From the NCBI GenBank assembly GCA_022592445.1, contig JABYQR010000169.1:1-64000 (forward strand): DNA of 64,000 bases, written 5' to 3'. Below are positions 13,955-49,343 of the stretch, in pieces. Origin of the DNA: Cytidiella melzeri. Taxonomy: Eukaryota; Basidiomycota; Agaricomycetes; Polyporales; Irpicaceae. Under the pieces are notes generated by a model, which was not told the DNA's origin, ran no database searches, and worked only from the letters and a program-made list of their open reading frames with translations. A program made the position numbers and the translations under genes. How positions within the stretch are numbered: the first letter of the stretch is position 1; each line of letters opens with the position of its first letter.

Positions 13955-14460
13955 GGGTCACGAGCAGCGCCGCCGTCAAGACCGTCACCGTACGACATCC
14001 CACCCGCTTCAGGCCTTATCCGCAACGGCGACAAAGGTTACACACACCTTCAACGAGGCCGCGCTGTTGACCCCACCGCCCCATTCTCCCTCTATGGTCA
14101 CGAGCAGCGTCGCCGTCGAGACCGTCACCGTACGACATCCCACCCGCTCCAGGCCTCATCCGCGACGGCGACGAAGCTTACACACACCTCCAACAAGGCC
14201 GCGCTGTTGACCCCACCGCCCCATTCTCCCTCTATGGTCACGAGCAGCGTCGCCGTCGAGACCGTCACCGTACGACATCCCACCCGCTCCAGGCCTCATC
14301 CGCGACGGCTACGAAGGTTACACATACCTTCAACGAGGCCGTGCTGTTGACCCCACCGCCCCATTCTCCCTCTATGGTCCCGCGCTGTTGACCCCACCGC
14401 CCCATTCTCCCTCTATGGTCACGAGCAGCGTCGCCATCGAGACCGTCACCGTACGACATC
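13955..14460 (+). repeat. Tandem repeat, unit about 139 bp, 3-4 copies
   Basis: Units each contain GACCGTCACCGTACGACATC, at about 13979, 14121, 14260 and 14443. The last unit is rearranged by a short duplication. The repeat is GC-rich and runs directly into the next gene fragment. Confidence 0.8.
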
Positions 14461-19167: not shown

Positions 19168-21652
19168 ATGTCGAGCACTACACCTCCCACAGGTGGTTCG
19201 GCATCGTCTGGCCCTGCTGGGTCCACTCCTGCCTCTGCAGGCCTCTCTGCCGCCGGTTCGTTGTTCGTCAAGAACACTTCCAGCAACTCCTCGTTCATCA
19301 AACTCGACTCGCTGCCTAAGCTGACTGGTGCCAACAACTGGAAGGAATGGAACATGCTGTTCATCCAGTTCCTCAAGACGCAAGCCGCGTCTGGCATGGT
19401 CGATCCTTCTCTGGTCAAGCCCGCGTCCACCGACACGGACTACGACGACTGGTGCAAGGCCGATGCCAACGTCACTCTGGTTCTCCTCGCGACCGTCGAT
19501 AGCTCTCTCCACCATCTCTTCGACCTCGAGACCAACTCCGCCGCCGAGATCTACGCTAAGCTTAAGGCCAACTACTCCGCCTCGACCACTCTCTCTGCGT
19601 TCCTCAAGTTCAAGCAATACTTCCTTCACACGATCGACGGCTCACGCCCTCTCGTTGAACAGCTTGAAGAACGTGGTCGTCTCTGGCAGGAAGTTGACGC
19701 CTCCGGCATCCTTGGCAACAAGGAACTGCTCAAGATCTTCGGTCTTCTCTCGGTACTCCCTGACTCCTTCTACAACATCGTCGAGTCCATCCTCACTGTC
19801 ACCGCGCCAAAGGACTTGAAATACGACGACATCTGATCGCGCCTCATTGACGAGGCTAAGCGAAAGGAATCGCCTTCAGTCTCTGCGGTCAAGTTCAACA
19901 AGTCTTCAGCTTCGTCCTCGTCGGGCAAGTCAAAGAAGCAGTGCGGGTTCTGCAAGTACAAGGGTCACACAGAGGACGAGTGTCGTAAGAAGAAGGCTGC
20001 CATTGAGGAGGCAAGGAAAGGGGGAAAAGGAGGAAAGGACAAGGGGAAGAAGGAACCTTCTGGGTCACCATCATCGTCTAACAGTTCTGCTGCTGTACAT
20101 GTAGTCTCCGCTGAGGACTCCACGTCCGAAGCTGCCAACGTCGCGAATATAGATGTTATGTTTTATGCTTCGGGTGAAACACCCTGGATGCTTGACTCAG
20201 GCTGTACGAGACACATCACCAACAACCTCAACGACTTCCATGACTACAAGCCGTTCACTACGCCGTCGTTCGCAACATTGGCTGATGCTTCGAAGACTTC
20301 AATGTCTACGCTTGGGTCTGGGAGCGTACGTGGAACCGTACACGTTGATGGAAAGCAGCTCACAGCGCAGTTCGACAACGTCTTATACTGCCCGGGCATC
20401 GCCTACCGACTCATTTCGATTTCCTGTCTCGACTCCAAAGGATTCTCTACCGTTTTCACTGGCGGTAAAGCACGGATACACAAGAATGATACCACCTATG
20501 GCATAGGTACTCTCAAGGGCGGCCAATACTGGTTGGGACTTCGCGTCTCTTCTTCGTCGGTCGCCTCCTCCACGCACACGCACCCGTCACCCATCGACCT
20601 TGTACACCAACGCTATGGTCACCTGAACTGGGAAGCACTACAGAAGCTACGCTCTGACGACTCCCCGGTGACAGGTCTGACTATTGACGAGAAGACTCCT
20701 CGCTCTGAACACGCATGCGAAGGTTGTCAACTCGGCAAGGCCACACGACGCACATTCCATTCATCCTCGACACCTCGCGCGGACAAACCTTTTGATCTCA
20801 TCCACACTGACTTGGCTGGACCTATGCAGAACTCTTCTGTAAACGGCGGACACCTCTACATGCTCACGTATATCGACGACTGCTCTGACAATGTCTGGAT
20901 TTATTTCCTGAAACACAAAGACGAACAGGAGCAGAAGTTTGAGGAGTTCCGTCAGCTGGTCAAAACTCAGTTCGAGAGGGATATCAAGATTCTTCGCTCT
21001 GACAGGGGCGGTGAATACCAGTCAAAGCGCTTTGTGCAATGACTGAAGGATCTTGGCATTGTCCATCAGCGCACCACCCCGGATACACCACAACAAAACG
21101 GCAAGGCTGAGCGTTTCAACCGCACCATCATGGAGGCTGCGCTCTCTATGCTTTACGCCGCCGGGATGTCCAAAGGATTTTGGGAAGAAGCCGTGAAAAC
21201 CGCTGTGCATGTGCGCAACCGAGCACCCAAACGGTCTCTGGATTGGAGGACACCATTCGAGATTATCACTGGCTCCAAGCCGGATGTTTCATACTTCCGT
21301 GTTTTTGGTTGCCTCGCCTATCACCACATTTACAAGGATCATCGCAGGAAGCTCGATGCTCACGCTCAGCCTCTTGTGCATGTTGGGTATGAAGCGGGTT
21401 CTAAAGGTTACCGCTTATGGGACAAACATACTCATATGATTGTCTCGAGTACTGACGTTGTATTCGATGAACTGATCTTTCCTAACTGTCCTTCACCTCC
21501 TACTCAACCAACTTCGAGCATTCCAACCTCTCCGCCGACCACGTACGATCTTGAACTTTCACTCCCTTTAACGCCCTCTTCGCAGCCGGCTACTACCACG
21601 TCGCAAGTGCCCCCAACTCAACAACCACCTCCTCCTGACGCAACATCCACGT
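19168..21652 (+). pseudogene. Copia gag-protease-integrase, 5' part of polyprotein
   Basis: ATG at 19168. Gag (residues about 1-290) ends with the zinc knuckle CGFCKYKGHTEDEC (about 19948-19990). Protease active site LDSGCTRHIT follows (about 20188-20217). Pre-integrase motif: HQRYGHLNW. Integrase: DLAGPM for the first catalytic Asp, SDRGGEY for the second, then DTPQQNGKAERFNR. Breaks: TGA at 19834-19836 at the end of the capsid-like region, and TGA at 21040-21042 after KRFVQ in the integrase core. The frame is otherwise open to 21652, where gypsy copy B interrupts a Pro/Ser/Thr-rich linker. Codon use is strongly GC-biased. Confidence 0.92.
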
Positions 21653-22409
21653 TGTCATGGATGGCCTGACTAGCCCTTAATTTTCGCAATTTACCTCTTG
21701 TTTTTATCTGTAAAACTCCGGGCTACAACCTAGTTTCAATTCTCTCTGCATAAACTCCTTTGCACGTCTATTAAGCGCCCGTATCACGTGGCTTAGACGC
21801 TCCACACGGTCACATTACTTGCTACTACGTCACACTGGCATGTGACTTAGCTTAAGTAAGCCCACATGGCTCCAGACACATGGCTCAGCCCATAGCTAGG
21901 GTTTGATGTCATAAATGACGTCCACATAGACTCCTTATTGTTCTTTCCCTATTGTTCTCTTTATGGAAGGATGTTCTCACAGGTGTGGGAATGGAATACA
22001 ATAGTTGGTCCCCTTTTAGATAGATTCTCTCACGAGTAGAGTTCTTGGCAAGGTCTAGACAATAGCTATTGTTCTCCTTTAGGTAGTTCTTTTGTTCTTC
22101 GTTCACACGGCTTCTTGCAAAGCCTGCCCTCAACATGGTCTGTGCGCAGGTCCCTGAAGTCTATATAAGCAGCTACATGTACGCTCCTAGCCCCCATCTC
22201 GACCTCTTGGTCTTTACTGGGCTAGGTAAGCAACACCCCTCTTGTACTACATAGCGAGTAGTATCAATACTAACTTGGTCTTTACTGGGCTAGACATCTG
22301 CATAAGGTTTATAGCTGGTGAGAGTATTGAGCTTCACGCCTACCACCACCACTTCGTCGTCATCCACTTCGTGTCCCTGTTTGTCACGTCGAGCCTTGTC
22401 TCCGTGTCA
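21653..22409 (+). repeat. Family 1 5' LTR, copy B
   Basis: Starts TGTCATGG and ends CCGTGTCA. TATATAA at 22162-22168 and predicted start at 22196. The U3 contains ATTGTTC motifs, CACGTGG and TACGTCAC. An antisense 75-codon ORF spans 21909-22136. Confidence 0.97.
22196..22293 (+). promoter_or_regulatory. Predicted start site and 68-nt intron inside the LTR
   Basis: Predicted exon 1 (22196-22225) begins ATCTCGACCT and ends CTTGGTCTTTACTGGGCTAG. The donor GTAAG starts at 22226, a perfect TACTAAC branch site is at 22268-22274, and the acceptor TAG ends at 22293. The last 20 nt of the intron (22274-22293) are identical to the last 20 nt of exon 1. The same layout is kept in all family-1 LTRs of this window. 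Confidence 0.6.
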
Positions 22410-22411
22410 TT

Positions 22412-22421
22412 AGGTCGAGAT
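22412..22421 (+). promoter_or_regulatory. Self-primer binding site, copy B
   Basis: AGGTCGAGAT, two bases inside the LTR edge, is the exact reverse complement of ATCTCGACCT at 22196-22205, the predicted transcript 5' end. This matches the arrangement known for Tf1 of fission yeast. No tRNA 3' end complement is recognised beside the LTR. Confidence 0.7.
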
Positions 22422-22480
22422 CGTTGTGAAAACCCTGGGTCCCCCATTCCCACCGTTTTAAAAAGTTTATTCCTGTTTGA

Positions 22481-23236
22481 CGAGTACGTCTCCGGTCTTC
22501 TCATACCGTTGAGCTACACTTACGTCGTCCGTTTCTACCCCCTGCGCGTTGTCTAGTGCCTAAGGACACACGCCCCCGTTTTTCTAAGAACCTCCCTGCC
22601 ACTGAGCCTCAGCTCAAGAGGTCTCTTCCACCATCTTTCCTCGACGCTCTCGCTGAAAAGCGCAAGAGTGGTCAACCTCATCGTTGGTATGACAAGGACC
22701 TGGTCACTGTCGCGAAGTACGTGTCCAAGAAGCCGCCTGTCAAAGGCATCACCCTCACCGTCCCCTCTTACGAGGAAAACCGACAACTTCGCGCCTCCGC
22801 ACGAGCATACGGAGAACGAGCTGCTGAGGAGCGTGACCGCACCTTAGCTGAGCAACAGACCCACAAGCTCACCTTTGCAGAGCGACTAGCAAAGCTCCCT
22901 GCACCAACCCCCGCCCCCGCTGCACCAAAGCCGGTATTAATCGACTTCAAGAAGTTGTCACCGGTTGATCTCGTAGGCATCTTCAAGCCAAAACTTACCG
23001 CCGTCCGCACTCGCTTGCAAGCTCTCACAGAGCTTGAAGAACTCCTGAACCACGCCAACCCCGACCACCGTCGCGCCCTGCTCCACCTCGTCAACAAGGT
23101 CAATCGTTTCCTCAACCGAGTCGACGATCTTGCACCCATCACAGCAGACCGCGAGTGGCAGCTCCTGACTGGGGTTGCAAAGCAATTGGGAAGGTTTCCT
23201 TCAAGCAGCTTCGTAAAAACTACGATAGAGTTTTAG
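22481..23236 (+). pseudogene. ORF0 upstream of gag, no AUG start, frameshifted
   Basis: The frame is open from 22481. The part resembling copy C begins VPKDTRPRFSKNLPATEP (22556). There is no ATG in this frame; the only ATG in the whole leader, at 22688, is out of frame. The protein is basic at the N-terminus, Pro/Ala-rich near residues 120-130, and helical after LSPVDLVGIF. Relative to copy C, one base is missing near 23166, so the last 23 codons are out of frame. The function is unknown and there is no similarity to Gag. Translation would need a non-AUG start or an upstream exon. TCTAG at 22552-22556 could also serve as an acceptor. Confidence 0.6.
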
Positions 23237-23354
23237 CACAACTTAACGTAGTCAATAGTGATAGCTACTTCGAGTGGATCTAGACACGACCACAGTTTTG
23301 CCACCACGCTACAATTACATACATTTCTTCGATTCGAGCACGGTCACAGACGAC

Positions 23355-24600
23355 ATGGATCCCAACCAGCCCGCCGCCCCTGCTGCCCCAGCTGCCCCAG
23401 TCGCCAACCTGAGCCAGCAAGACGTCCTGAATATGTTAGGCGTCTTGACACAAAAGATGGTAGACCTGACCAACCAGGTGGCTGCACTTGCAGCTGCACA
23501 GACACCAGCGGTGGCCGCTGCCACCCACGCTTCTCGGGAAAGAAGCATAGTTGAGAAACCAGTCTCCTTCAAGGGGAAAACTCGTCGGAAGCCCGGCTCT
23601 TCCGCCACGCGTTCATAGTATGGGCGCAAAATCAAGGAAAAGCGTTCTTCCAGCAAGACGCGCAAGGCCATGTCCGGGTGGACAACAACGGCGCGAGGAT
23701 CTTTGATCCTCATAAACTCATCACAAGCGCCCTGTCCTTCATGCAAGAGGACGCCGCTGATTGGGCTCGCCCTCACATTGAGGAGTTAGCCAATAGCAAA
23801 CCAGCATTTGGAAATGACTGGGACACATTTATCGAGGCTTTTAAAGCCAAATTCGAGCCTATAGATGCTGTCATGGAGGCCAAGACGAAAGTCGCCAACA
23901 TGAAGCAAGGCAACAAGACCTTCGCCGCCCACATCTCCGAGTTTGAGACATGGGCCCCTCGCACTGGCTGGAGCCAGCAGGACCTCTTTGACCGCCTCAA
24001 GTCGAGCTTGAGCACCGAGTACTTGCAACGTGTCTCGTACTTTCAAACCCGCGCCGCTACCTACGACGCCCTCAAGGACCAGTGCAAGGCAGTCGATGCT
24101 CAACTTGCCGACCTCCGCAACAGCACCGGCAAGGTCATGGTGGACAGCTCGTCAGGGCACGGCAAGTCCCATCAGCAGGCGTTCCGCGATCCCAATGCTA
24201 TGGAGATCGATGCCTCCCGTTTCTCCGCCTCGTTTGACTCGCTCTTTGCGGGTCTGGGCAAACAGGAGATCTTCCAGAAATGGAAGAAGGAGATGAGCAA
24301 GCGCTGCTCGGTTTGCGGATCTGAGAGTCACAAGAAGAGGGACTCGAAGCACCCAGACGACCCGGTCTGCAACCACTGCGGTGGCACCGGTCACTGGGGG
24401 GCAGTTTGCCTAAAACGGCTCCAAGGCGTCCCTAAGGGACAAAAGGTTGCCGCTACCTCGTCGACATCGTCGACTACTACTGCAGCCAAGCAAGACGCGT
24501 CCAACGACAAGGATGCTAAAATTGCTGCGCTCAAGGACATGCTTGACATCCAGAAGAAGCAAATGGATGAGATGGCAGCAAAAATTAATGCGGTTTTTTG
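23355..24600 (+). pseudogene. Gypsy family 1 gag, copy B
   Basis: ATG at 23355 in a strong context (GACATGG), the second ATG after the predicted start site. The N-terminus is Ala/Pro-rich, followed by a capsid-like (retrotrans_gag) region around FDPHKLITSALSFMQEDAAD and DRLKSSLSTEYLQRV. Two cysteine clusters lie near the end, CSVCGSESHKK and a canonical CCHC knuckle CNHCGGTGHWGAVC (about 24370-24410). The C-terminus is a short coiled coil ending INAVF. One base is missing near 23580 relative to copy C, so the frame is split. The stop overlaps the pol frame at a run of six T. Confidence 0.92.
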
Positions 24601-27600
24601 AAGCGGACTCGTGACACAGCCGCAGCTGCGAGTCCCCCAGATACCCTGTCCTTGCTTCCTTCGTCGTCCCCGTCTTCTGCCTCGTCGTCTTCGTGTACAA
24701 CGTCTACTCCATGCCCATCGTCTACTATCTCCTCGTGTACTATATCGTCGCTAGATCGGTTATCGTCTCATTTCCGTGTACATGTACTAGTTAAAGGTCT
24801 GAATAGAAGCATTCGCGTTCCTGCTATGATCGATTCAGGAGCTACGGCTTTATTCATCAGTCACCAGTTCGTCAAGAAGCATAAGATTATTCAGCACCCG
24901 CTCGAAAGGGTCATCTCATTGCATAACATTGACGGAACTAAGAATAAAGCTGGCGGATTAACGCACTTCGTTCGCCTTACACTCACAGTCGGAGATCACA
25001 CGGAAAAGGCAGAGTTTCTCGTCACGGACTTAGGTCCAGAAGACGTCATTCTTGGGCTACCATGGCTCAACGCGTAAACCCTACCGTTAACTGGGAAAAA
25101 GGAGAAATGACAATTCCGAGCGGCTCGGAAGAATCTCCTGATGAACCTTTCCAGAAGGTTGACGGTAATTGCAAAGAACGTAGGCAGTGGGTCAAAGCCG
25201 GTATTATCCAAGACACCACTGACGAAGTCTGGTGTATGGCCGGCTTCACCTACTCTACCAAGCTTGCTGCCGAAGCAAACGAAGCTAAAGCTCAGCGCTC
25301 CTTCGAAGACATTGTTCCATCAGAGTATCACCGACATGCTAAAGTCTTCTCTGAGGAAGAGTCTAATCGGCTACCCCAGCATCAGCCCTGGGACCATTCG
25401 ATTGATCTCAAACCAGACGCTCCTGAGACTATCAAATCGAAAGTTTATCCTATGCCCCTGAAGAACAAGCCGAGCTTGACAATTCATCCAGGAGAACCTA
25501 GCAAAAGGTTACATCACGCCTTCTAAGTCTCCATGGCTTCTCCAGTCTTCTTCATCAAAAAGAAGGACAACAAACTCCGACTTATCCAGGACTACAGAAA
25601 ACTCAACGACATCACGTGAAGAACCGCTACCCTCTACCGCTTGCCACCGACATCATCAACAAGCTCAAGGGTGCAAAGATCTTCACCAAATTCGATGTTG
25701 TTGGGGATATCACAATGTCCGCATCAAAGAAGGAGACGAGTACAAAGCGGCTTTCGTTACCAACCGAGGACTCTTCGAACCTAAAGTCATGTTCTTCGGT
25801 CTCACGAACTCACCCGCTACCTTCCAAGCTCTGATGGACAACATCTTCGCCGACCTCGTGGCCGAGGGCAAGGTGGCTGTCTATCTAGATGACATCTTGA
25901 TCTGGAGTAACAACCTGACAGAGCACCGCAAGGTTGTTCATGAAGTCCTCGAGCGACTTCAGCAGCACGATCTGTATCTTCGTCCGGAAAAGTGCGAGTT
26001 TGAGAAATCTGAGATCGAGTACCTTGGATTGATCATTCGCGCCGGCGAAGTAGCTATGGACCCTGTCAAAGTCCAAGCAGTTTCTACGTGGCCCACACCC
26101 AAGAACCTCAAAGAAGTCAGAGGATTCATCGGGTTCGCCAACTTCTACCGCCGCTTCATTCAAGACTTCTCAAAGCACGCACGGCCTCTACACGACCTGA
26201 CTAAGAAGGACGTACCGTTCGTCTGGGGTCCAGCACAAGAGACTGCCTTCACGTTGCTAAAGAAGGCCTTTACCACTAAGCCTATCTTGGCAGTCTGGGA
26301 CCCTGAACTCCCTACACGTCTAGAAGTCGATGCCTCGGGCTATGCGACCGGTGGAATCATCTCCCAGAAATCGAAGGAAGATGGATTCTACCACCCTATC
26401 GCCTACCGGTCCGCATCTATGACTGAAGCAGAACGTAACTACGAAATCTTTGATCGGGAGATGTTAGCCATCACCGAAGCTCTCAAAGATTGGCGCCACT
26501 ACCTTGAGGGCTCAAGGAACCGTTTGAGATCTGGACAGATCAGCAAACTGCAGTACTGGAAGACTGCGCAACACCTCACTCGACGTCAAGCACGTTGGTC
26601 ATTACTTTTGGCTGACTTCGACTTCGTGTTGGTACACAAGCCCGGTAGTACCATGATACATGCTGATCCTCTCTCTCGTCTTCACTCTCACGCTGTCACG
26701 GACGAAGAAGACAACAAGGATCAGGTGGTACTGAAACCGGAACACTTCCGCATCCTCGCCACCAGTGCACTTGCCACTGCTTCTCCGCTCGAATCAAAGA
26801 TCCGAGAATGCACGGAGCAAGAAGCAGAAGTCGCACAAGCTCTCGCTACCCTTCGCAAGAAGGGTCCTCGCAAACTTGTCAGCGGTTTACTCGAATGGGA
26901 AGAGAGTGACGGCTCATCTATTACAAGGGAAAACTCTACATCCCTAACAACAAAGAGCTCCGTCACGAAATCGTCAAATCTTGCCATGACGCACCCGCGG
27001 CTGGTCATCCGGGCAAACATGGCACCATAGAGCTAGTCTCACGACACTATTGGTGGCCAAAGATGAATGCTTTCGTGAGATTACGTACTAGGCTGTGATC
27101 GCTGTCAACGCTATAAGTCAGCTCCGCACCCTAAAGCAGTACTACAACCTCAGGAAACTCCGGCCGGACCTTGGGAACACGTCGGAGTAGATCTCATCAC
27201 TCAGCTACCACCTTCTAAGGGATTTGATTCGATCGCGGTCTACGTCGACCATTACTCCGATCAAACGCACATCATCCCACTACTACTAAGGTTAACGCTG
27301 AGGGGATTGCCGATCTACACTACAAAGAAGTATTCCGACTTCACGGCATTCCCAAGAAGGTGTTCTCTGACCGAGGACCCCAGTTTGCAGCACGCTTCAT
27401 GCGTGCGCTCTATCACCGCCTAGGCATAGAGACTGGTTTTACGACCGCCTATCATCCGCAAGGAAATGGCAAAGTCGAACGCAAAAACCAGGATATTGAA
27501 CAGTATCTGCGTCTATTCTGTCAGCAACGACAAGACGACTGGATCGATCATCTGCCGGCGGCTGAGTTTGCACTCAACTCGAGAGTACATGCGGGTAACT

Positions 27601-28389
27601 CACAAACACCGTTTGAAGTCATCTACGGATATCGCCCCGACTTCACTATACCAGTTGGCAAGCGAAGCAATATCCCTTCACTCGATGACGCCTTGATAAT
27701 ATGGCTCGAGTACGAAAGGAGACCGAAGCAGCTCTTCGTCTAAGCAAAGAAAAGATGAAGCAACTTTACGAGTCTGAGAAGCGTTCTCCACGCGTCTTCC
27801 AAGTAGGGGACATGGTCTGGCTAAACGCTAAGAACGTCCAGATTCACCAGGCTACCCCTAAACTCGGTCCTCGACAACTCGGCCCGTACAAGTCATCGAA
27901 CGCATTGGCGATCTCGATTACAAACTCGATCTACCCAGCTATCTCCGAATCCACCCCGTCTTCCATATCAACCGTCTAAGTCCCTGGCACGACAACGGCA
28001 AAGACGTACCTCCACCTCCTGATCCTATTGTCATAGAAGGAGAAGAACAGTACGTCGTCGAAAAGGTGCTAGACAGCAGGCTACACGGACGTTGGAAGAA
28101 ATTGCAATTCCTTGTCAAATGGGAAGGGTATTCAGACGGACACAATAGCTGGGAACCAGTCGAAAACCTCGAGAATAGTCAAGAAGCAATTGACGACTTC
28201 TACAAAGCAAACCCCGGAGCGCCCCGGGTCATCAAAGCTTCACTCTTCGCGGATCTACGCTCGCACTTTCGGGAATTCAATACCCAGACCGACCCCGCTT
28301 TCCTTCGCACGATCTATCCATCTACATACGATCTTAGCTGGGATGAAGGCAAACACATCGGTCTGGATATCTCAAGAACATCACACTGA
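24594..28389 (+). pseudogene. Gypsy family 1 pol, copy B
   Basis: The pol frame is -1 relative to gag. Protease: MIDSGATALFIS (about 24825-24860). RT active site: VYLDDILIW intact (about 25877-25905). RNase H: LEVDASGYATGG, with TDHAN region damaged near 26540. Integrase: SDRGPQF (about 27363-27383) and YHPQGNGKVERKNQ. Chromodomain: VKWEGYSDGHNSWEP (about 28117-28162). At least ten 1-2 nt deletions relative to copies A and C break the frame (for example near 25066, 25533, 25617, 26513, 26912, 27688 and 27890). Almost no transition-type stop codons are present, unlike the sister copies. Confidence 0.93.
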
Positions 28390-28541
28390 CGGGTAACGTC
28401 GAGTCAACGACACCAGAAGGGGAGAAACTTCCTAGCATCCTTCTGACTAGACAATCGGGGCAATTCTGCTGAATCCCTGTAGACGGGTAGAAGACCTCTA
28501 TCACCACAGCACAGTGATGCTTCGCGAGGACGCTCGATTTT

Positions 28542-28554
28542 AGGAGGGGGGTAA
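28542..28554 (+). promoter_or_regulatory. Polypurine tract, copy B
   Basis: AGGAGGGGGGTAA directly before the 3' LTR; the plus-strand primer site of the element. Confidence 0.85.
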
Positions 28555-29308
28555 TGTCATGGATGGCCTGACTAGCCCTTAATTTTCGCAATTTACCTCT
28601 TGTTTTTATCTGTAAAACTCCGGGCTACAACCTAGTTTCAATTCTCTCTGCATAAACTCCTTTGCACGTCTATTAAGCGCCCGTATCACGTGGCTTAGAC
28701 GCTCCACACGGTCACATTACTTGCTACTACGTCACACTGGCATGTGACTTAGCTTAAGTAAGACCACATGGCTACAGACACATGGCTCAGCCCATAGCTA
28801 GGGTTTGATGTCATAAATGACGTCCACATGGACTCCTTATTGTTCTTTCCCTATTGTTCTCTTTATGGAAGGATGTTCTCACAGGTGTGGGAATGGAATA
28901 CAATAGTTGGTCTCCTTTTAGATAGATTCTCTCACGAGTAGAGTTCTTGGCAAGGTCTAGACAATAGCTATTGTTCTCCTTTAGGTAGTTCTTTTGTTCT
29001 TCGTTCACACGGCTTCTTGCAAAGCCTGCCCTCAACATGGTCTGTGCGCAGGTCCCTGAAGTCTATATAACTGCTACATGTACGCTCCTAGCCCCCATCT
29101 CGACCTCTTGGTCTTTACTGGGCTAGGTAAGCAACCCCCTCTTGTACTACATAGCGAGTAGTACAATACTAACTTGGTCTTTACTGGGCTAGACATCTGC
29201 ATAAGGTTTATAGCTGGTGAGAGTATTGAGCTTCACGCCTACCACCACCACTTCGTCGTCATCCACTTCGTGTCCCTGTTTGTCACGTCGAGCCTTGTCT
29301 CCGTGTCA
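28555..29308 (+). repeat. Family 1 3' LTR, copy B
   Basis: 754 bp, nearly identical to the 5' LTR. Differences include loss of AGC after the TATA box and single-base losses, consistent with the deletion pattern in the coding part. Confidence 0.97.
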
Positions 29309-29313
29309 CACGT

Positions 29314-42181: not shown

Positions 42182-44198
42182 AAAACCGCATTGATTTTGG
42201 CTGCCATCTCATCCATTTCCTTCTTTTGGATGTCAAGCATGTCCTTGAGTGCCGCAATCTTAGCATCCTTGTCATTGGATGCGTCTTGCTTCGCCGGGGT
42301 AGTGGTCAACGAGGTCGACGAGGTAGCAGCGACTTTTTGTCCCTTAGGGATGCCTTGAAGCCGTTTCAGGCAAACCGCCCCCCAGTGACCGGTACCACCG
42401 CAGTGGTTGCAAACCGGGTCATCAGGGTGCTTCGAGTCCCTCTTCTTGTGGTTCTCGGATCCACAAACCGAGCAGCGCTTGCTCATTTCCTTCTTCCATT
42501 TCTGGAAGATCTCCTGTTTGCCCACACCCGCAAAGAGCGAGTCAAACGAGGTGGAGAAGCGGGATGCGTCAATCTCCATTGCATTGGGATCACGGAACGC
42601 TTGCTGGTGGGACTTGCCATGTCCCGAGGAACTGTCTACCATGACCTTGCCTGTGCTGTTGCGGAGGTCGGCAAGCTGGGCATCGACCGCCTTGCACTGA
42701 TCTTTGAGTGCGTCGTAAGTGGCAGCGCGAGTTTGGAAGTACAAGATGCGTTGCAAGTACTCGGTGCTCAAGCTCGACTTGAGGCGATCGAAGAGGTCCT
42801 GCTGGCTCCAGCCAGTGCGAGGGGCCCATGTCTCAAATTCAGAGATATGGGCGGCAAAGGTCTTATTGCCCTGCTTTGTCATGGATGGCCTGACTAGCCC
42901 TTAATTTTCGCAATTTACCTCTTGTTTTTATCTGTAAAACTCCGGGCTACAACCTAGTTTCAATTCTCTCTGCATAAACTCCTTTGCACGTCTATTAAGC
43001 GCCCGTATCACGTGGCTTAGACGCTCCACACGGTCACATTACTTGCTACTACGTCACACTGGCATGTGACTTAGCTTAAGTAAGACCACATGGCTACAGA
43101 CACATGGCTCAGCCCATAGCTAGGGTTTGACGTCATAGATACCATCCACATGGGCTCCTTATTGTTCTTTCCCTATTGTTCTCTTTATGGAAGGATGTTC
43201 TCACAGGTGTGGGAATGGAATACAATAGTTGGTCTCCTTTTAGATAGATTCTCTCACGGGTAGAGTTCTTGGCAAGGTCTAGACAATAGCTATTGTTCTC
43301 CTTTAGGTAGTTCTTTTGTTCTTCGTTCACACGGCTTCTTGCAAAACCTGCCCTCAACATGGTCTGTGCGCAGGTCCCTGAAGTCTATATATACTGCTAC
43401 ATGTACGCTCCTAGCCCCCCATCTCGACCTCTTGGTCTTTACTGGGCTAGGTAAGCAAACCCCTCTGTACTACATAGCTGGTAGTACCCAATACTAACTT
43501 GGTCTTTACTGGGCTAGATAACTTGTATAAAGTCTGATAGCTGGTGAGAGCATTGTGCTACACGCCTGCCACCACCTCCTCGTCAATATCCACTTCGTGT
43601 CCCTGTCTGTCACGTCGAGCCTTGTCTCCGTGTCATGCTTCATGTTGGCAATCTTTGTTTTTGCCTCCATGACAGCGTCAATAGGATCGAATTTGGCTTT
43701 GAACGCCTCAATGAATGTGTCCCAGCTGTTGCCAAAAGCTGGTTTGCTGTTTGCTAGCTCCTCAATATGAGGGCAAGCCCAGTCAGCGGCGTCGTCTTGC
43801 ATGAACGACAGAGCACCGGTGATGAGTTTGTGAGGATCAAAGATCCTCGCGCCATTGTTGTCCAACCGGACCTGGCCTTGTGCATCTTGCTGGAAGAATG
43901 CTTTTCCTTGATTTTGCACCCAGACTATGAACGCGTGACGGAAGAGCCTGGCTTCCGACGATGTTTTCCCCTTGAAGGAGACCGGCCTTTCAACAATGCT
44001 TCTCTCCCAAGAAGTATGCGTGGCAGCGGCAACCGCTGGCGTCTGTGCGGCGGCAAGTGCAGCCACCTGGTTGGTAAGGTCAACCATTCTCTGTGTCAGG
44101 ATGCCAAACATGTTTAAGATGTCTTGGGCGCTCAGGTTGGCAGCAGGGGCAGCAAGGGCAGCAGGGGCAGCGGTGGCGGTGGGCTGGTTGGGATCCAT
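42178..44198 (-). pseudogene. Gypsy family 1 gag, copy C, interrupted by solo LTR
   Basis: ATG at 44198. Capsid-like region, CSVCGSENHKK and the knuckle CNHCGGTGHWGAVC, then a C-terminal coiled coil. Solo LTR E (42877-43635) with its duplicated AAGCA separates codons for ANMK and QGNKTF. Removing it restores one open frame with no other break, so gag was intact when LTR E inserted. The stop overlaps the pol frame at six T residues. Confidence 0.95.
42877..43635 (+). repeat. Family 1 solo LTR E
   Basis: 759 bp, TGTCATGG...GTGTCA, flanked by TGCTT at 42872-42876 and 43636-43640. A full element must have recombined out after inserting in gag of copy C. Confidence 0.98.
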
Positions 44199-44425
44199 GT
44201 CTTGTGTGATGAGGCGTAAATTTTCTTTGTTGGGCGTCTGGTGGTGCTCAGCGTAGTACTCGCTGTTAACGGCTTCAGAGGAGTCTGCCTGAGTATATCG
44301 ATTTGGACAAGGTTGTCACACTCGTAGAAGAGACCTCCGTAGAAGTGGTCGTTGGTGACGGTATTTGAGTCGAAGAAATGTATACAATTATTACAATACG
44401 TGGTGGGCAAAAACTTGTGGACTGT

Positions 44426-45154
44426 TTAGATCCACTCGAAGTAGCTATCATTATTAACTACGTTAAGCTGTGCAAGAACTTTGCTATAGTTCTTACAAAG
44501 CTGCTTAAACGAAACTTTCCCAATTGCTTTGCAACCCCAGTCTATGAGTTGCCACTTGCGGTCTGCTGTGACAGGTGCGAGCTTGTCAAGTCGGTTGAGG
44601 AAACAATTGACTTTGTTGACGAGATGGAGTAGCGCATGACGGTGGTCAGGGTCTGCGCAGTTGAGAAGTTCTTGGAGCTTGGTGAGAGCTTGTAGGCGGG
44701 TGCGAACCGCGGTAAGTTTCTGCCTGAAGATGCCGACGAGGTCAACCGGTGATAGTTTCTTGAAGTCTATTAACACCGGTTTGGGTGCAGCGGGAGCGGG
44801 AGTGGGCGGGGGAAGCTTGGCTAGCCGCTCAGAGAGAGTCGGCTTGTGGGTCCGCTGCTCAGCTAGAGTGCGAGCACGTTCTTCAGCCACACGTTCTCCG
44901 TATGCTCGGGCAGAAGCGCGAAGTTGTCGATTTTCCTCGTAAGAGGGGACAGTGAGGGTGATGCCTTTGACAGGCGGCTTCTTGGACACGTACTTCGCGA
45001 CGGTGACCAGGTCTTTGTCAGACCAGCAATGAGGTTGACCGCTCTTGCGCTTTTCAGCTAGAGTGTCAAGGAAAGATGGTGGAAGAGACCTCTTGAGCTG
45101 AGGCTCAGTTGCGGGGAGGTTCTTAGAAAAACGGGGGCGCGTGTCTTTAGGCAC
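44426..45154 (-). CDS. ORF0 of gypsy family 1, intact, methionine-free
   Basis: 242 codons counted from GTG at 45154, open to TAG. No Met codon occurs anywhere in the frame. N-terminus PKDTRPRFSKNLPATEP; charged helix around residues 75-100 (AYGERVAEERARTLAEQ); Pro/Ala linker; then LSPVDLVGIFRQKLTAVRTR and a C-terminal segment KAIGKVSFKQLCKNYSKVL, ending FEWI. It does not resemble Gag, protease or Pol. It lies between the self-primer site and gag with about 230 nt before the gag ATG. A non-AUG start or a spliced-in start is required. It aligns to the copy B frame almost throughout. The C-terminal motif also recurs in ORF0 of family 3. Confidence 0.6.
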   Translation of the reverse strand: MPKDTRPRFSKNLPATEPQLKRSLPPSFLDTLAEKRKSGQPHCWSDKDLVTVAKYVSKKPPVKGITLTVPSYEENRQLRASARAYGERVAEERARTLAEQRTHKPTLSERLAKLPPPTPAPAAPKPVLIDFKKLSPVDLVGIFRQKLTAVRTRLQALTKLQELLNCADPDHRHALLHLVNKVNCFLNRLDKLAPVTADRKWQLIDWGCKAIGKVSFKQLCKNYSKVLAQLNVVNNDSYFEWI

Positions 45155-45288
45155 TAAACAACGCGCAGGGGGTAGAAACAGACGACGTAAGTGTAGCTCA
45201 ACGGTATGAGGAGACCGGAGACGTACTCGTCAAACAGGAATAAACTTTTTAAAACGGTGGGAGTGGGGGACCCAGGGTTTACACAACA

Positions 45289-45298
45289 ATCTCGACCT
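45289..45298 (-). promoter_or_regulatory. Self-primer binding site, copy C
   Basis: On the minus strand AGGTCGAGAT, complementary to the start motif ATCTCGACCT of the same LTR family (plus-strand 45505-45514). Confidence 0.7.
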
Positions 45299-45300
45299 AA

Positions 45301-47389
45301 TGTCACGGAGATGGAGCTCAACGCAGCAACTAGGGACACGATGTGGACGACGACGACGAGGTGGTGGCAGGCGTGTAGCACAATGCTCTCACCAACTATA
45401 AACCTTATTCAGGTAGCTAGCCCAGTAAAGACCAAGTTAGTATTGGGTACTACCAGCTATGTAGTACAGAGGGGGTTTGCTTACCTAGCCCAGTAAAGAC
45501 CAAGAGGTCGAGATGGGGGGCTAGGAGCGTACATGTAGCAGTATATATAGACTTCAGGGACCTGCGCACAGACCATGTTGAGGGCAGGCTTTTGCAAGAA
45601 GCCGTGTGAACAAAGAACAAAAGAACTACCTAAAGGAGAACAATAGCTATTGTCTAGACCTTGCCAAGAACTCTACCCGTGAGAGAATCTATCTAAAAGG
45701 AGACCAACTATTGTATTCCATTCCCACACCTGTGAGAACATCCTTCCATAAAGAGAACAATAAGGAAAGAACAATAAGGAGCCCATGTGGACAGTATCTA
45801 TGACGTCAAACCCTAGCTATGGGCTGAGCCATGTGTTTGTAGCCATGTGGTCTTACTTAAGCTAAGTCACATGCCAGTGTGACGTAGTAGCAAGTAATGT
45901 GACCGTGTGGAGTGTCTAAGCCACATGATATGGGCGCTTAATACACGTGAAAAGGGAGTTTATGCTGAGAAGGTTGCAACTGAGCTGCAGCCAAGAGTTT
46001 TACAGATAAAAACAAGAGGTAACACTATGTCAAATACCAGATTTTCCAGCATCAAAAACGGTTGAAAAAAGCGTGAACTATTGCACAACCAGATCTAAGA
46101 TTGGATGAGTCAGAAAATGATGTAAAAATTCAGTTTGTGGGTTCTGGATTTCAACCGTTGAAAAATCATGCAGTAAAGTGTTGTGAGGTGCCAAGTTTAG
46201 TGATCTAATGTTGTCCAGGATTTGTGAGGTAGCAAAATCGTGACTGTCAGCATGATTTTACTTACTTCACAAATTTGTAATGATTTTGAAGTTAGCAAAA
46301 TGCTGCACTGATTCTGCAATAGTGGCAATATTTTGCAAATTGAACAATTGTGGTTCAATGCTACTGCCAAGAGCTCAAAGTTGTACTCGGCTTTTTCTGC
46401 TTTCAAATTCAATGCACTATTCATACCTCAAATCCTATGCAGAGTACAGAGTTTTGCAGCTGACAAATTTGTGAGAAAATGAATCCAGAAATCTTGAATC
46501 TAAAGGCAGCATTTTGCGGTCAAGAAAACCGTTGATCAATGCATCCATGATTGGTATGGTTTTATAGCATGTAAAATCCTCCTTCAAACTGTACATACAG
46601 ACAAAGTAGTCCTTAGTCCCTAGTCTGCAGGAAGTTACGGTCAGTACGGACTACGGCCTAGGACTACAGACTACGGACTACGGACTACGGACTAAGGACT
46701 ACGGACCAAGGGCAAAGGACTAGTTAGTCTGTATGTACATTTAGGAGCAGAATTTACATGCTCCAGAATCTTACTAATGATGCATGCATTTCACCAATGG
46801 TTTTGTCAACTGCAAAATGCTGACTTTGTATTCAGAATTTTGGAAATAATTCCCTCAAATTCTGTCAGCCCCAAAACTCTGCGCTCTGCATAGGATTTAA
46901 GGCATGGATAGTACATCGGATTTGCAAGCAGAAAAAGCCTACTGCAAATTGTGAGCTCTCAGCACTAGCATTGAACCATGTTTGTTTAGCTTGCAAAATC
47001 TTCTCGCCAGAGCAAAATTAGTGCAGAATTTTGCTAACTTGAAAAGAGAAATCACAATTCTGACCTCAGTCATGCGTTGTACAAAGATTTATGTGTATAT
47101 AGAACCCAGCTGAGAGTCACAGTTTTCATACCTCATAAATTGTATACACCAGCAACATTTTTTCAGCTACTAAATCTCGCACCTTACAAGGCTTTACTGC
47201 ATGATTTTTCAACGGTTCAAATCCAGAACCCACAAACTAAATTTTTGCATCATTTTCTGACCCATCCAATCTTAGATCTGGTTGCGCGATAGTTCACGCT
47301 TTTTTCAACTGTTTTATGATGCTGGAAAATCTGGCATTTGACGTAGTGTAAATTGCGAAAATTAAGGGCTAGTCAGGCCATCCATGACA
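45301..47389 (-). repeat. Family 1 5' LTR, copy C, split by MITE
   Basis: 45301-46022 and 47352-47389 rejoin to 760 bp after removing the CACTA MITE and one TAA. Confidence 0.95.
46023..47348. mobile_element. Palindromic CACTA-type MITE
   Basis: 1326 bp, starting CACTATGTCAAAT and ending ATTTGACGTAGTG, flanked by TAA on both sides (46020-46022, 47349-47351). A CACTA terminus with a 3-bp target duplication is diagnostic of the CACTA (EnSpm/CMC) superfamily. The two halves are diverged inverse copies over most of their length, meeting at an internal loop (about 46596-46741). The loop has GTACATACAGAC/GTCTGTATGTAC inverted borders and a CGGACTA tandem repeat. No transposase frame is present, so it would depend on an autonomous element. 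Confidence 0.92.
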
Positions 47390-47394
47390 AACGG

Positions 47395-47996
47395 TATTAT
47401 TGGGAATATTTAAGCGCTTCTCAAGCACTTATCCAGCGCTTATCCTACGTCTATTTAGGCGCTTATCCAGCGCTTATCTGGCGCTTATTCCGGCGCTTAT
47501 TCTCAGTGCCTATCAATTAATGCGCTGATGCGCCTCCTGTCTCTGATGCGCTGATGCGCTCCTTTCCTTATCTGTGTATCACATGATAGAACTCTCTGTA
47601 ACCTTGTGGAACATGCTGGAACTATGATGTCATAGTATAGAACAAGCTAGAACAAGTCTAGCCTTGGAGCTGGGTCATGGGGTCAGGTCATGGGGACAAT
47701 TGCTATTGGTTGATTATTGAAGTGGCACCACTAGGGCATAGGGCATGCTTAGTAAGGTAGATTACTTCGCTTACTCATGTAGGTCTTAGAGGTCTTAGGG
47801 TAGTACCTGGGGTCCTCCCCTTCATGTATATATAGAGGCACTCCTGAGGGCATATCCCCTCAGTGTTATCCACTCTGTTGATCAAGGACTACTCTGTACT
47901 CTCCAGTACTTCGCTCACCACAACTCCTACTCTCTATCTCAATATCTCCCCCTCAAGTTCAACACTTATCTGGTGAGTGTAACCCTAACTGTTACA
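47395..47996 (+). repeat. Family 3 5' LTR, main part
   Basis: Continues from 37541. TATATATA 47827-47834, predicted start 47861. Ends CTGTTACA. Lacks about 60 bp found in the 3' LTR. Confidence 0.95.
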
Positions 47997-48575: not shown

Positions 48576-49343
48576 ATGCCTCTTTCCCGCTACGTCGCTG
48601 CTAGGTCTGGCTGCAAGGCCCCCTACTCTATCCCCGTCCGCAACAAAGTCACTGGACTTCAAGAACGCCTCTCAGTCTCCAAGGAGACTCTCGACAAGTT
48701 CAAGGATGCTGGCAAGCCTCGCCGGCTCAAATACCCCAATAACAAGCCCCTCATCAAGAGGATCGACCTCAAAGAGCAGGCTTGCACCACCATAGAGCAT
48801 GAGGAGAACCAGGCTCGCATGAGCCAGGTCTCTCACCTCATGTCTCAACTCAGCTTTCTCGATCATATCGAGAAGCAAGAGAAGAAGGAAGCTGAAAAGC
48901 TTTCTCTCCTTCAGCGTATCGAGGAGCGCAACCAACGCGCTTACATTCCCACTCCTAATCCGCTCCCCGCTTCTCTCCACTTCCGTAAAACGAAGTTGAT
49001 GCTTTGTCAACAGGAATTCAAACCAATGGTCACAGCAGCCTGTCAAAGGCTTGAGCCTGTGCTCAAAAAGCTGGACGCCTCCTTCTCGAGTGGTGGGCAA
49101 TTGTCTAACCACCAGCTCAACACTCGTCGGGAGAAAGCTCAGCTGTTGATCGGTTGTGGCTTCAGATCGCAAGGAGAATCACACGGACAAGATGTTGAAC
49201 AGGGAATGGAGGATGTTAAAAAGGACTTAAAAAGTTTAGGCAGGATTAGTTTTGTAGACATACATCGGAGATGGGGTTATATCCTAGAGCTACTAGAAGG
49301 GCTGTTTGATATGAACGCCTTTGTATATGCGGAAATGGAATAA
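48576..49343 (+). CDS. ORF0 of gypsy family 3
   Basis: 255 codons from an ATG in good context (TCACCATGC). Basic N-terminus (MPLSRYVAARSGCKAP), a long charged helix around residues 85-125 (HIEKQEKKEAEKLSLLQRIE), a central helical part, and a C-terminus with KSLGRISFVDIHRRWGYIL. The order basic region, helix, then (I/L)G(K/R)(V/I)SF parallels ORF0 of family 1 at the same position between primer site and gag. The product is not recognised; its overall composition suggests a nucleic-acid-binding or structural protein. The frame is intact although gag and pol of this copy are broken. A 170-nt spacer with in-frame stops separates it from gag. Confidence 0.65.
   Translation: MPLSRYVAARSGCKAPYSIPVRNKVTGLQERLSVSKETLDKFKDAGKPRRLKYPNNKPLIKRIDLKEQACTTIEHEENQARMSQVSHLMSQLSFLDHIEKQEKKEAEKLSLLQRIEERNQRAYIPTPNPLPASLHFRKTKLMLCQQEFKPMVTAACQRLEPVLKKLDASFSSGGQLSNHQLNTRREKAQLLIGCGFRSQGESHGQDVEQGMEDVKKDLKSLGRISFVDIHRRWGYILELLEGLFDMNAFVYAEME

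Follow-up and report, generated by a model that had tools for sequence, protein, structure and literature searches.

The 64,000-nucleotide (nt) stretch of Cytidiella melzeri DNA analyzed here (contig JABYQR010000169.1, positions 1 to 64,000; hereafter the window) carries two copies, B and C, of a high-copy long terminal repeat (LTR) retrotransposon. Between the 5' LTR and gag this element has an additional open reading frame (ORF), ORF0, which is conserved, has no internal methionine codon, and would receive its AUG through the removal of a small intron from the leader RNA. The leader of the unspliced RNA is kept free of AUG as far as gag. The coordinates of these and other features are given in Table 1.

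Copy B is bounded by TG...CA LTRs and a target-site duplication (TSD), and its insertion site reads, by eye, as a copia element. Pieces of copies B and C match the Pfam families RVT_1, RVP_2, RT_RNaseH, Integrase_H2C2, and Chromo, with rve below its cut-off, and the element also has a match to Retrotrans_gag. Because families of gag, aspartic protease, reverse transcriptase, RNase H, integrase, and chromodomain are all matched, the element, with its LTRs and TSD, can be assigned to the chromodomain class of Ty3/gypsy. The genome (49.7 Mb in 731 contigs) was searched for further copies. The alignment used below holds 91 copies: 90 genome loci, copy B included, and copy C. Thirty of the loci come from a first genome search and 60 were picked from the best 144 ORF0 matches among 909 scored candidates. 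Note that this sample leans to better-scoring and better-preserved copies and that all 91 are kept in the leader counts. The presumed first 10 nt of the RNA are the perfect complement of the putative primer-binding segment just past the LTR in 73 copies; the other 18 have a shorter match or none of at least 6 nt, and a control region reaches 6 nt at most. This start motif lies 34 nt downstream of a TATA box. Together, the complement and the TATA box place the RNA 5' end at about 22196, and the element is apparently self-priming, as Tf1 is.

In the leader, from the RNA start to gag, ATG is strongly depleted. Fifty-one of the 91 copies have none, 26 have one, 11 have two, and three have three. 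The observed mean is 0.63 ATG per copy against 7.9 (standard deviation 2.3) in shuffles that preserve dinucleotides. A sequence-only reading of the window had noticed the shortage in copies B and C and proposed such a count across copies, in which the depletion holds. The single ATG that it saw in copy B is real (at 22689, one base from where it had been placed, 22688), as are the two in copy C (at 44637 and 44451, off by one and 14), and the two copies have none of these in common. The roughly 14 ATGs that it expected follow from base composition (13.8 in copy B); dinucleotide shuffling lowers this figure to the mean given above. Between 22196 and 23355 the most widely shared ATG occurs in no more than six copies, and ATG is the sole trinucleotide missing among 1,017 conserved leader sites. 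Upstream of the leader, U3 has 11 conserved ATG sites. The last of them (22177) is kept in 89 of the 91 copies, and the next conserved ATG is that of gag, kept in 87. Variants that create an ATG make up 15 of 383 singletons, 5 of 143 variants carried by two to four copies, and 2 of 421 carried by at least five. The amino-acid sequence of ORF0 does not explain the shortage, because shuffling of its synonymous codons gives 2.56 expected ATGs against 0.27 observed (85 copies). The spacer between the ORF0 stop and gag (23284-23354 in copy B) is from 32 to 256 nt long in the 87 copies whose gag ATG is present, and despite this several-fold variation it is without any ATG in 84 of the 91. Intron 2, described below, has no conserved ATG either. 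These results support selection on the leader to stay AUG-free up to gag, as the sequence-only reading had suggested, and we infer that ribosomes scan the intron-bearing RNA from the cap to gag. Its other suggestion, a long unstructured leader, is not borne out: in copies B and C, 200-nt windows fold to much the same degree as dinucleotide shuffles (mean z -0.64 and -0.72), the exception being the two leading windows, which span the first 300 nt and show less structure (z 0.87 to 1.6).

ORF0 is open over 267 codons from stop to stop, and the constrained part comprises 242 codons. The intact-frame filter is passed by 83 of the 90 fetched copies, 79 of which have no internal Met, in agreement with the Met-free conserved frame of about 240 codons first seen in copies B and C. 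Read from codon 21, ORF0 has no stop in 85 of the 91 copies; copy B has a frame shift near 23168. The ratio of non-synonymous to synonymous changes (N/S), relative to expectation, is 0.79 for singletons, 0.65 for variants with 2-4 carriers, 0.13 with 5-15 carriers, and 0.07 with more than 15. Amino-acid changes are, then, about tenfold depleted among widely shared variants, and in the selection test that the sequence-only reading had proposed the widely shared classes are far below 1. The other two frames give N/S of 2.1-5.6 in the two most frequent classes. In this test transitions were weighted 4:1; codon columns scorable in fewer than 60 copies were excluded, as were codons with more than one base difference. 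The ratio observed in singletons, 129:114, points to a smaller weight, with which the expected N/S would rise and the reported ratios would fall. The decrease of N/S with carrier count is as expected if copies are under selection as long as they are active and drift once inserted. Judged by these patterns of variation, ORF0 is a real gene under purifying selection.

The coding constraint has an abrupt onset at 22557-22559. In the open frame, non-synonymous variants and indels are present in codons 1-25, and from codon 27 onward shared change is mainly synonymous. Shared variants at the three codon positions number 6/8/3 in 22484-22556, with no third-position excess, and 11/5/31, 7/7/45, 12/4/55, and 17/2/52 in successive segments from 22559 on. 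This boundary coincides with a 3' splice site, YAG/TGCC (the slash marks the exon border), and a donor, A/GTACGT, lies 73 nt upstream. The A/GT...AG/TG borders of this intron 2 are intact in 84 of the 91 copies, and its length is 72-74 nt. The six donor bases have no variant common to three or more copies, and other parts of the intron are variable. In copy B, joining of the exons gives ATG CCT AAG GAC. A junction ATG with A at -3 would form in 89 of the 91 copies; the base at +4 is C, not G. Removal of intron 2 would create the AUG of ORF0.

The predicted spliced junction is found in genomic DNA. A pattern allowing up to two mismatches finds it at seven places (L091-L097), six of them exact and one with one mismatch; the reversed control gives none. 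One of these loci, L096, is L080 of the 91-copy set. BLAST alignments with copy B break exactly at 22483/22557 in six, where the locus coordinates are contiguous; in L097 the break is no more than two bases away, at the mismatch. The 5' LTR is present from its first base in six of the seven, and L091 shows the LTR end only. Five loci run through ORF0 into gag, L091 and L097 being interrupted inside ORF0, and five of the seven hold a complete ORF0 of 242 or 243 codons from the new ATG. In a tree, the nearest neighbors of each junction copy are intron-bearing, at distances of 0.011-0.035 for L093, L094, L095, and L080/L096, 0.105 for L092, and 0.41 and 1.06 for L097 and L091, both on long branches. 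The junction copies apparently come from several separate events. The exact exon end is followed by a base other than G at seven places in the genome, which are the six exact spliced junctions and one donor point change; this search finds no acceptor besides that of ORF0. A microhomology deletion was also considered as their origin and rejected by reading, since the junction sequence misfits: a surplus G would remain if the stretch between the AGT repeats at the two boundaries were deleted. For this reason, splicing and subsequent reverse transcription are the cause that fits.

Another candidate intron, intron 1, lies in R-U5, with GTAAGC presumably as donor and TACTAAC as a branch-like motif. 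It is precisely missing in 12 of the 91 copies, all 12 of which have intron 2; subfamilies differ here. L092 has neither intron, and L093-L097, five of the seven copies without intron 2, keep candidate intron 1, so that joint removal of the two is not the rule. Because candidate intron 1 lies between direct repeats of about 20 nt, its deletion would look the same as its splicing. An ORF from the ATG at 22177 spliced over intron 1 was set aside by reading, the inferred RNA start lying downstream of that ATG.

Table 1. Features of the element and its neighbors in the window (positions of the window; strand; remarks)
Feature	Position	Strand	Remarks
Copy B, LTR retrotransposon	21653-29308	+	TG...CA LTRs and TSD
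TSD of copy B, CACGT	21648-21652 and 29309-29313
5' LTR, copy B	21653..22409	+
TATA box in 5' LTR, copy B	22162	+
Inferred RNA 5' end, copy B	22196..22205	+	10 nt; reverse complement of segment inside the LTR boundary
Candidate intron 1 (R-U5)	22226..22293	+	GTAAGC...TACTAAC...CTAG
Putative self-priming primer-binding segment, copy B	22412..22421	+	2 nt past LTR
Leader of unspliced RNA, copy B	22196..23354	+	AUG-free design; one ATG in copy B itself
Putative intron 2, copy B	22484..22556	+	A/GTACGT...YAG/TG, 73 nt; excision joins A (22483) to TG (22557)
ORF0 exon, copy B	22557..23283	+	242 codons including junction ATG in intact copies; stop 23281-23283
gag, copy B	23355..24601	+	First conserved AUG of unspliced RNA; context GACATGG; frame broken by mutation in copy B
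3' LTR, copy B	28555..29308	+
Leader of copy C	44198..45514	-	RNA-start motif (45514) to first base of gag ATG (44198)
ORF0 exon, copy C	44426..45153	-	Open as far as its stop
Putative intron 2, copy C	45154..45226	-
ORF0-like frame, second gypsy family	48576-49343		ATG present; same place, before gag
Signals of second gypsy family (by eye)	47973; 48570; 49508; 49514		Donor-like GTGAGT; acceptor-like CACAG; TTAG; gag ATG

ORF0 has few relatives. At E <= 0.001 a protein database search with ORF0 finds only P0001, from Cytidiella melzeri (Polyporales, Irpicaceae), and at E <= 0.01 a 16-member ORF0 profile finds only P0001 and P0002 among the 7,999 candidates sharing most words. P0001 is ORF0 run into the apparent 5' end of another LTR of the element family; its end, ...TLVMDGLTSP, is one frame of the first bases of the LTR. 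It has the look of a piece of retrotransposon that was annotated as a host protein. P0002, which lies on a 2.4-kb contig, matches ORF0 across 140 columns at the C terminus (hhalign probability 98, E 3e-13, 29% identity) and has one Met in 220 residues, at its start, which suggests that the Met-free design may predate the element family. ORF0 matches no Pfam family, its matches in PDB are at chance level (E 0.75 and 0.96), and a plasmid collection gives no match. An AlphaFold model from a 5-sequence alignment is helical and of low confidence (predicted local distance difference test 48.8, predicted template modeling score 0.27). The window also holds a second gypsy family with an ORF0-like frame at the same place, and the C-terminal motif of this frame resembles that of ORF0 by eye, the profile match being weak (hhalign probability 12.8). 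From its splice-like signals, this family may use alternative acceptors. Elsewhere in the window, a tandem repeat of three units (13956-14385, spacing 140 nt) has units 93-94% alike.

These observations can be combined in a model in which splicing chooses between two proteins. RNA that retains intron 2 would have no AUG over about 1.16 kb, so that ribosomes scanning it would arrive at the AUG of gag and produce Gag (and Pol); it would also be the normal template for reverse transcription. In RNA freed of intron 2, the exon-final A and the exon-initial TG would form the AUG from which ORF0, an accessory protein of 242 amino acids, would be translated, and the ratio of spliced to unspliced RNA would be regulated. 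ATG would be purged from ORF0, intron, and spacer alike because any ATG there would intercept ribosomes bound for gag. We regard such a splicing-controlled choice between Gag and ORF0 as quite probable. It is supported in the genome by the AUG desert and the purging of new ATGs, purifying selection on ORF0, the onset of coding constraint, the splice signals, and the copies with the spliced junction.

Several points weigh against this model. Splicing is read from genomic footprints, and retention of the intron, translation of ORF0, and control of the ratio would follow by inference. Copies decay: 40 of the 91 have at least one leader ATG, and canonical intron 2 is absent in seven (one of which is the intron-less copy). 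Independent origin is firm for four junction copies only (L093, L094, L095, and L080/L096), and more diverged intron-less copies would escape the two-mismatch pattern. Among the best 144 ORF0 matches 37 hold a stop, in many cases ahead of the real start. In the one copy read of the second gypsy family, 23 other ATGs precede gag if the start is taken to be at 47871, which means that the design is not a general one, and neither of the two spliced junctions searched for this family in the genome was found. In view of these missing junctions and the weak homology to ORF0, the family was rejected as a second example; within one fungus, the same position before gag can be handled differently. Moreover, an AUG-free ORF0 suits leaky scanning on spliced RNA too, and Gag may not need the unspliced form.

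Leaky scanning is the basis of the alternative that uses one RNA. Most transcripts would be spliced, ORF0 would start at the junction AUG, and ribosomes slipping past it would reach gag, splicing being no switch. AUG-free ORF0 fits this equally well, as does the C at +4 of the junction AUG; with A at -3, however, many ribosomes should start there. Copies with the intron are far more numerous than those without it, the unspliced exon-intron boundary occurring at 272 genomic places (at most one mismatch) against the seven junctions, which implies that intron-bearing RNA is what usually propagates. The lack of conserved ATG in intron 2 itself is relevant only if intron-bearing RNA is scanned. We consider leaky scanning unlikely, if still a serious contender; it may act alongside the splicing-controlled choice, and the odds of the two overlap. 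The sequence-only reading had instead proposed a near-cognate start of ORF0 on unspliced RNA, for which the GTG at 22556 is the best candidate. This GTG is conserved in all 89 scorable copies and the constraint begins directly after it, yet the AG/TG splice site predicts the same conservation. A pyrimidine at -3 makes its context poor. The donor at 22484 would be of no use to a GTG start and is nevertheless conserved, and the seven junction copies have a true ATG. A near-cognate start is therefore most improbable.

Gag could also come from a different spliced RNA, one that leaves ORF0 out, the ATG desert having another cause, such as selection against the Met codon or composition. The splice-like signals seen by eye before the ORF0-like frame and gag of the neighboring gypsy family would fit this. 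The desert, however, spans all frames, the intron, and the spacer, beyond Met codons, and no acceptor but that of ORF0 lies behind the exact exon end of intron 2. The search covered one skipping junction, which runs from the donor of candidate intron 1 to a point directly ahead of gag, and gave no true match: its 55 matches are all listed at 3 mismatches, with ACAACTTGTA or ATGACTTGAA replacing the surroundings of the gag ATG, and the first variant is U5 sequence of sampled copies. We think a leader-skipping RNA very unlikely. That chance or composition bias made the desert and that ORF0 is a decaying relic is hardly credible. The leader is C-rich (31% C in copy B), and one or two stops in each of those 37 matches would agree with decay; the other 107 of the 144 are stop-free, and 15 of the stop-bearing frames in the 91 copies are affected only in their first 20 codons, before the real start. 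The shuffles, the N/S by frequency class, and the triplet periodicity all contradict it.

What the ORF0 protein does may be related to the choice itself. Retroviral Rev or Rex would be a functional parallel: ORF0, produced only once splicing has formed its AUG, could be a feedback regulator of the RNA of its own element that holds back further splicing or favors export or packaging of intron-bearing RNA. We offer this as a speculation and think it rather doubtful. If it is true, intron 2 is a self-sensing start-codon switch.

Parts of this arrangement are found in known systems, which are compared here as far as the available parts of the cited papers describe them. In Tf1/sushi elements, also of the Ty3/gypsy superfamily, the RNA pairs through its first nucleotides with the primer-binding site (PMC7175516). 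The complementarity is 11 nt there and 10 nt here, where ORF0 and the leader intron are extra and the RNA 5' end is deduced from sequence. Ogre, a plant Ty3/gypsy element, has an extra ORF, without a known function, between LTR and gag (PMC1142308, PMC6431247); its likeness to ORF0 is one of position. A 2005 paper, in the part available, states that no LTR retroelement had been reported with an intron upstream of gag, and leaves open how the extra ORF of Ogre is expressed (PMC1142308). An "additional ORF of unknown function" is also on record for fungal gypsy elements (PMC2864245); this likeness, an extra ORF in fungal Ty3/gypsy, is one of description. In the present element an expression route of an extra ORF before gag can be read from genomic copies, as an intron that makes the start codon and an AUG-swept leader that keeps Gag possible. 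A simple test for other elements is to look for A/GT...AG/TG ahead of Met-free frames. Gene finders that demand a genomic ATG would miss proteins such as ORF0.

Leaky scanning through AUG-less ORFs is described in plant pararetroviruses (PMC5902531). Rice tungro bacilliform virus (RTBV) and badnaviruses are likewise reverse-transcribing, and a further protein of RTBV is made from a spliced RNA. The long upstream ORF without internal AUG is shared with them, and here no ATG is conserved in any frame. The first ORF of RTBV, however, has an AUU of that same RNA as its start, whereas removal of the 73-nt intron here would create a standard AUG; the unspliced RNA has no conserved AUG, and its GTG in poor context sits at the splice site. 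Alternative introns are known in BARE and other retroelements (PMC3735527). Copia and env-class gypsy elements are grouped with BARE as retroelements whose expression is switched by an intron, the two RNA forms coding for different proteins. In BARE-1 a small alternative intron alters the protein made by nearly full-length retrotransposon RNA, as would be the case here. That intron, of 104 nt, lies at the end of gag and creates a stop codon, in contrast to a start codon upstream of gag, and here junction copies are present in the genome. A literature search, with most subscription papers outside its scope, found no retroelement in which splicing makes the start codon of an accessory ORF. Different start codons on spliced and unspliced RNA are used by yeast GCR1 (PMC7826247). 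GCR1 is a host gene whose AUGs pre-exist, one in exon 1 and one in the intron, and lead to isoforms of a single protein, whereas the AUG of ORF0 would be made at the junction and would serve a separate protein.
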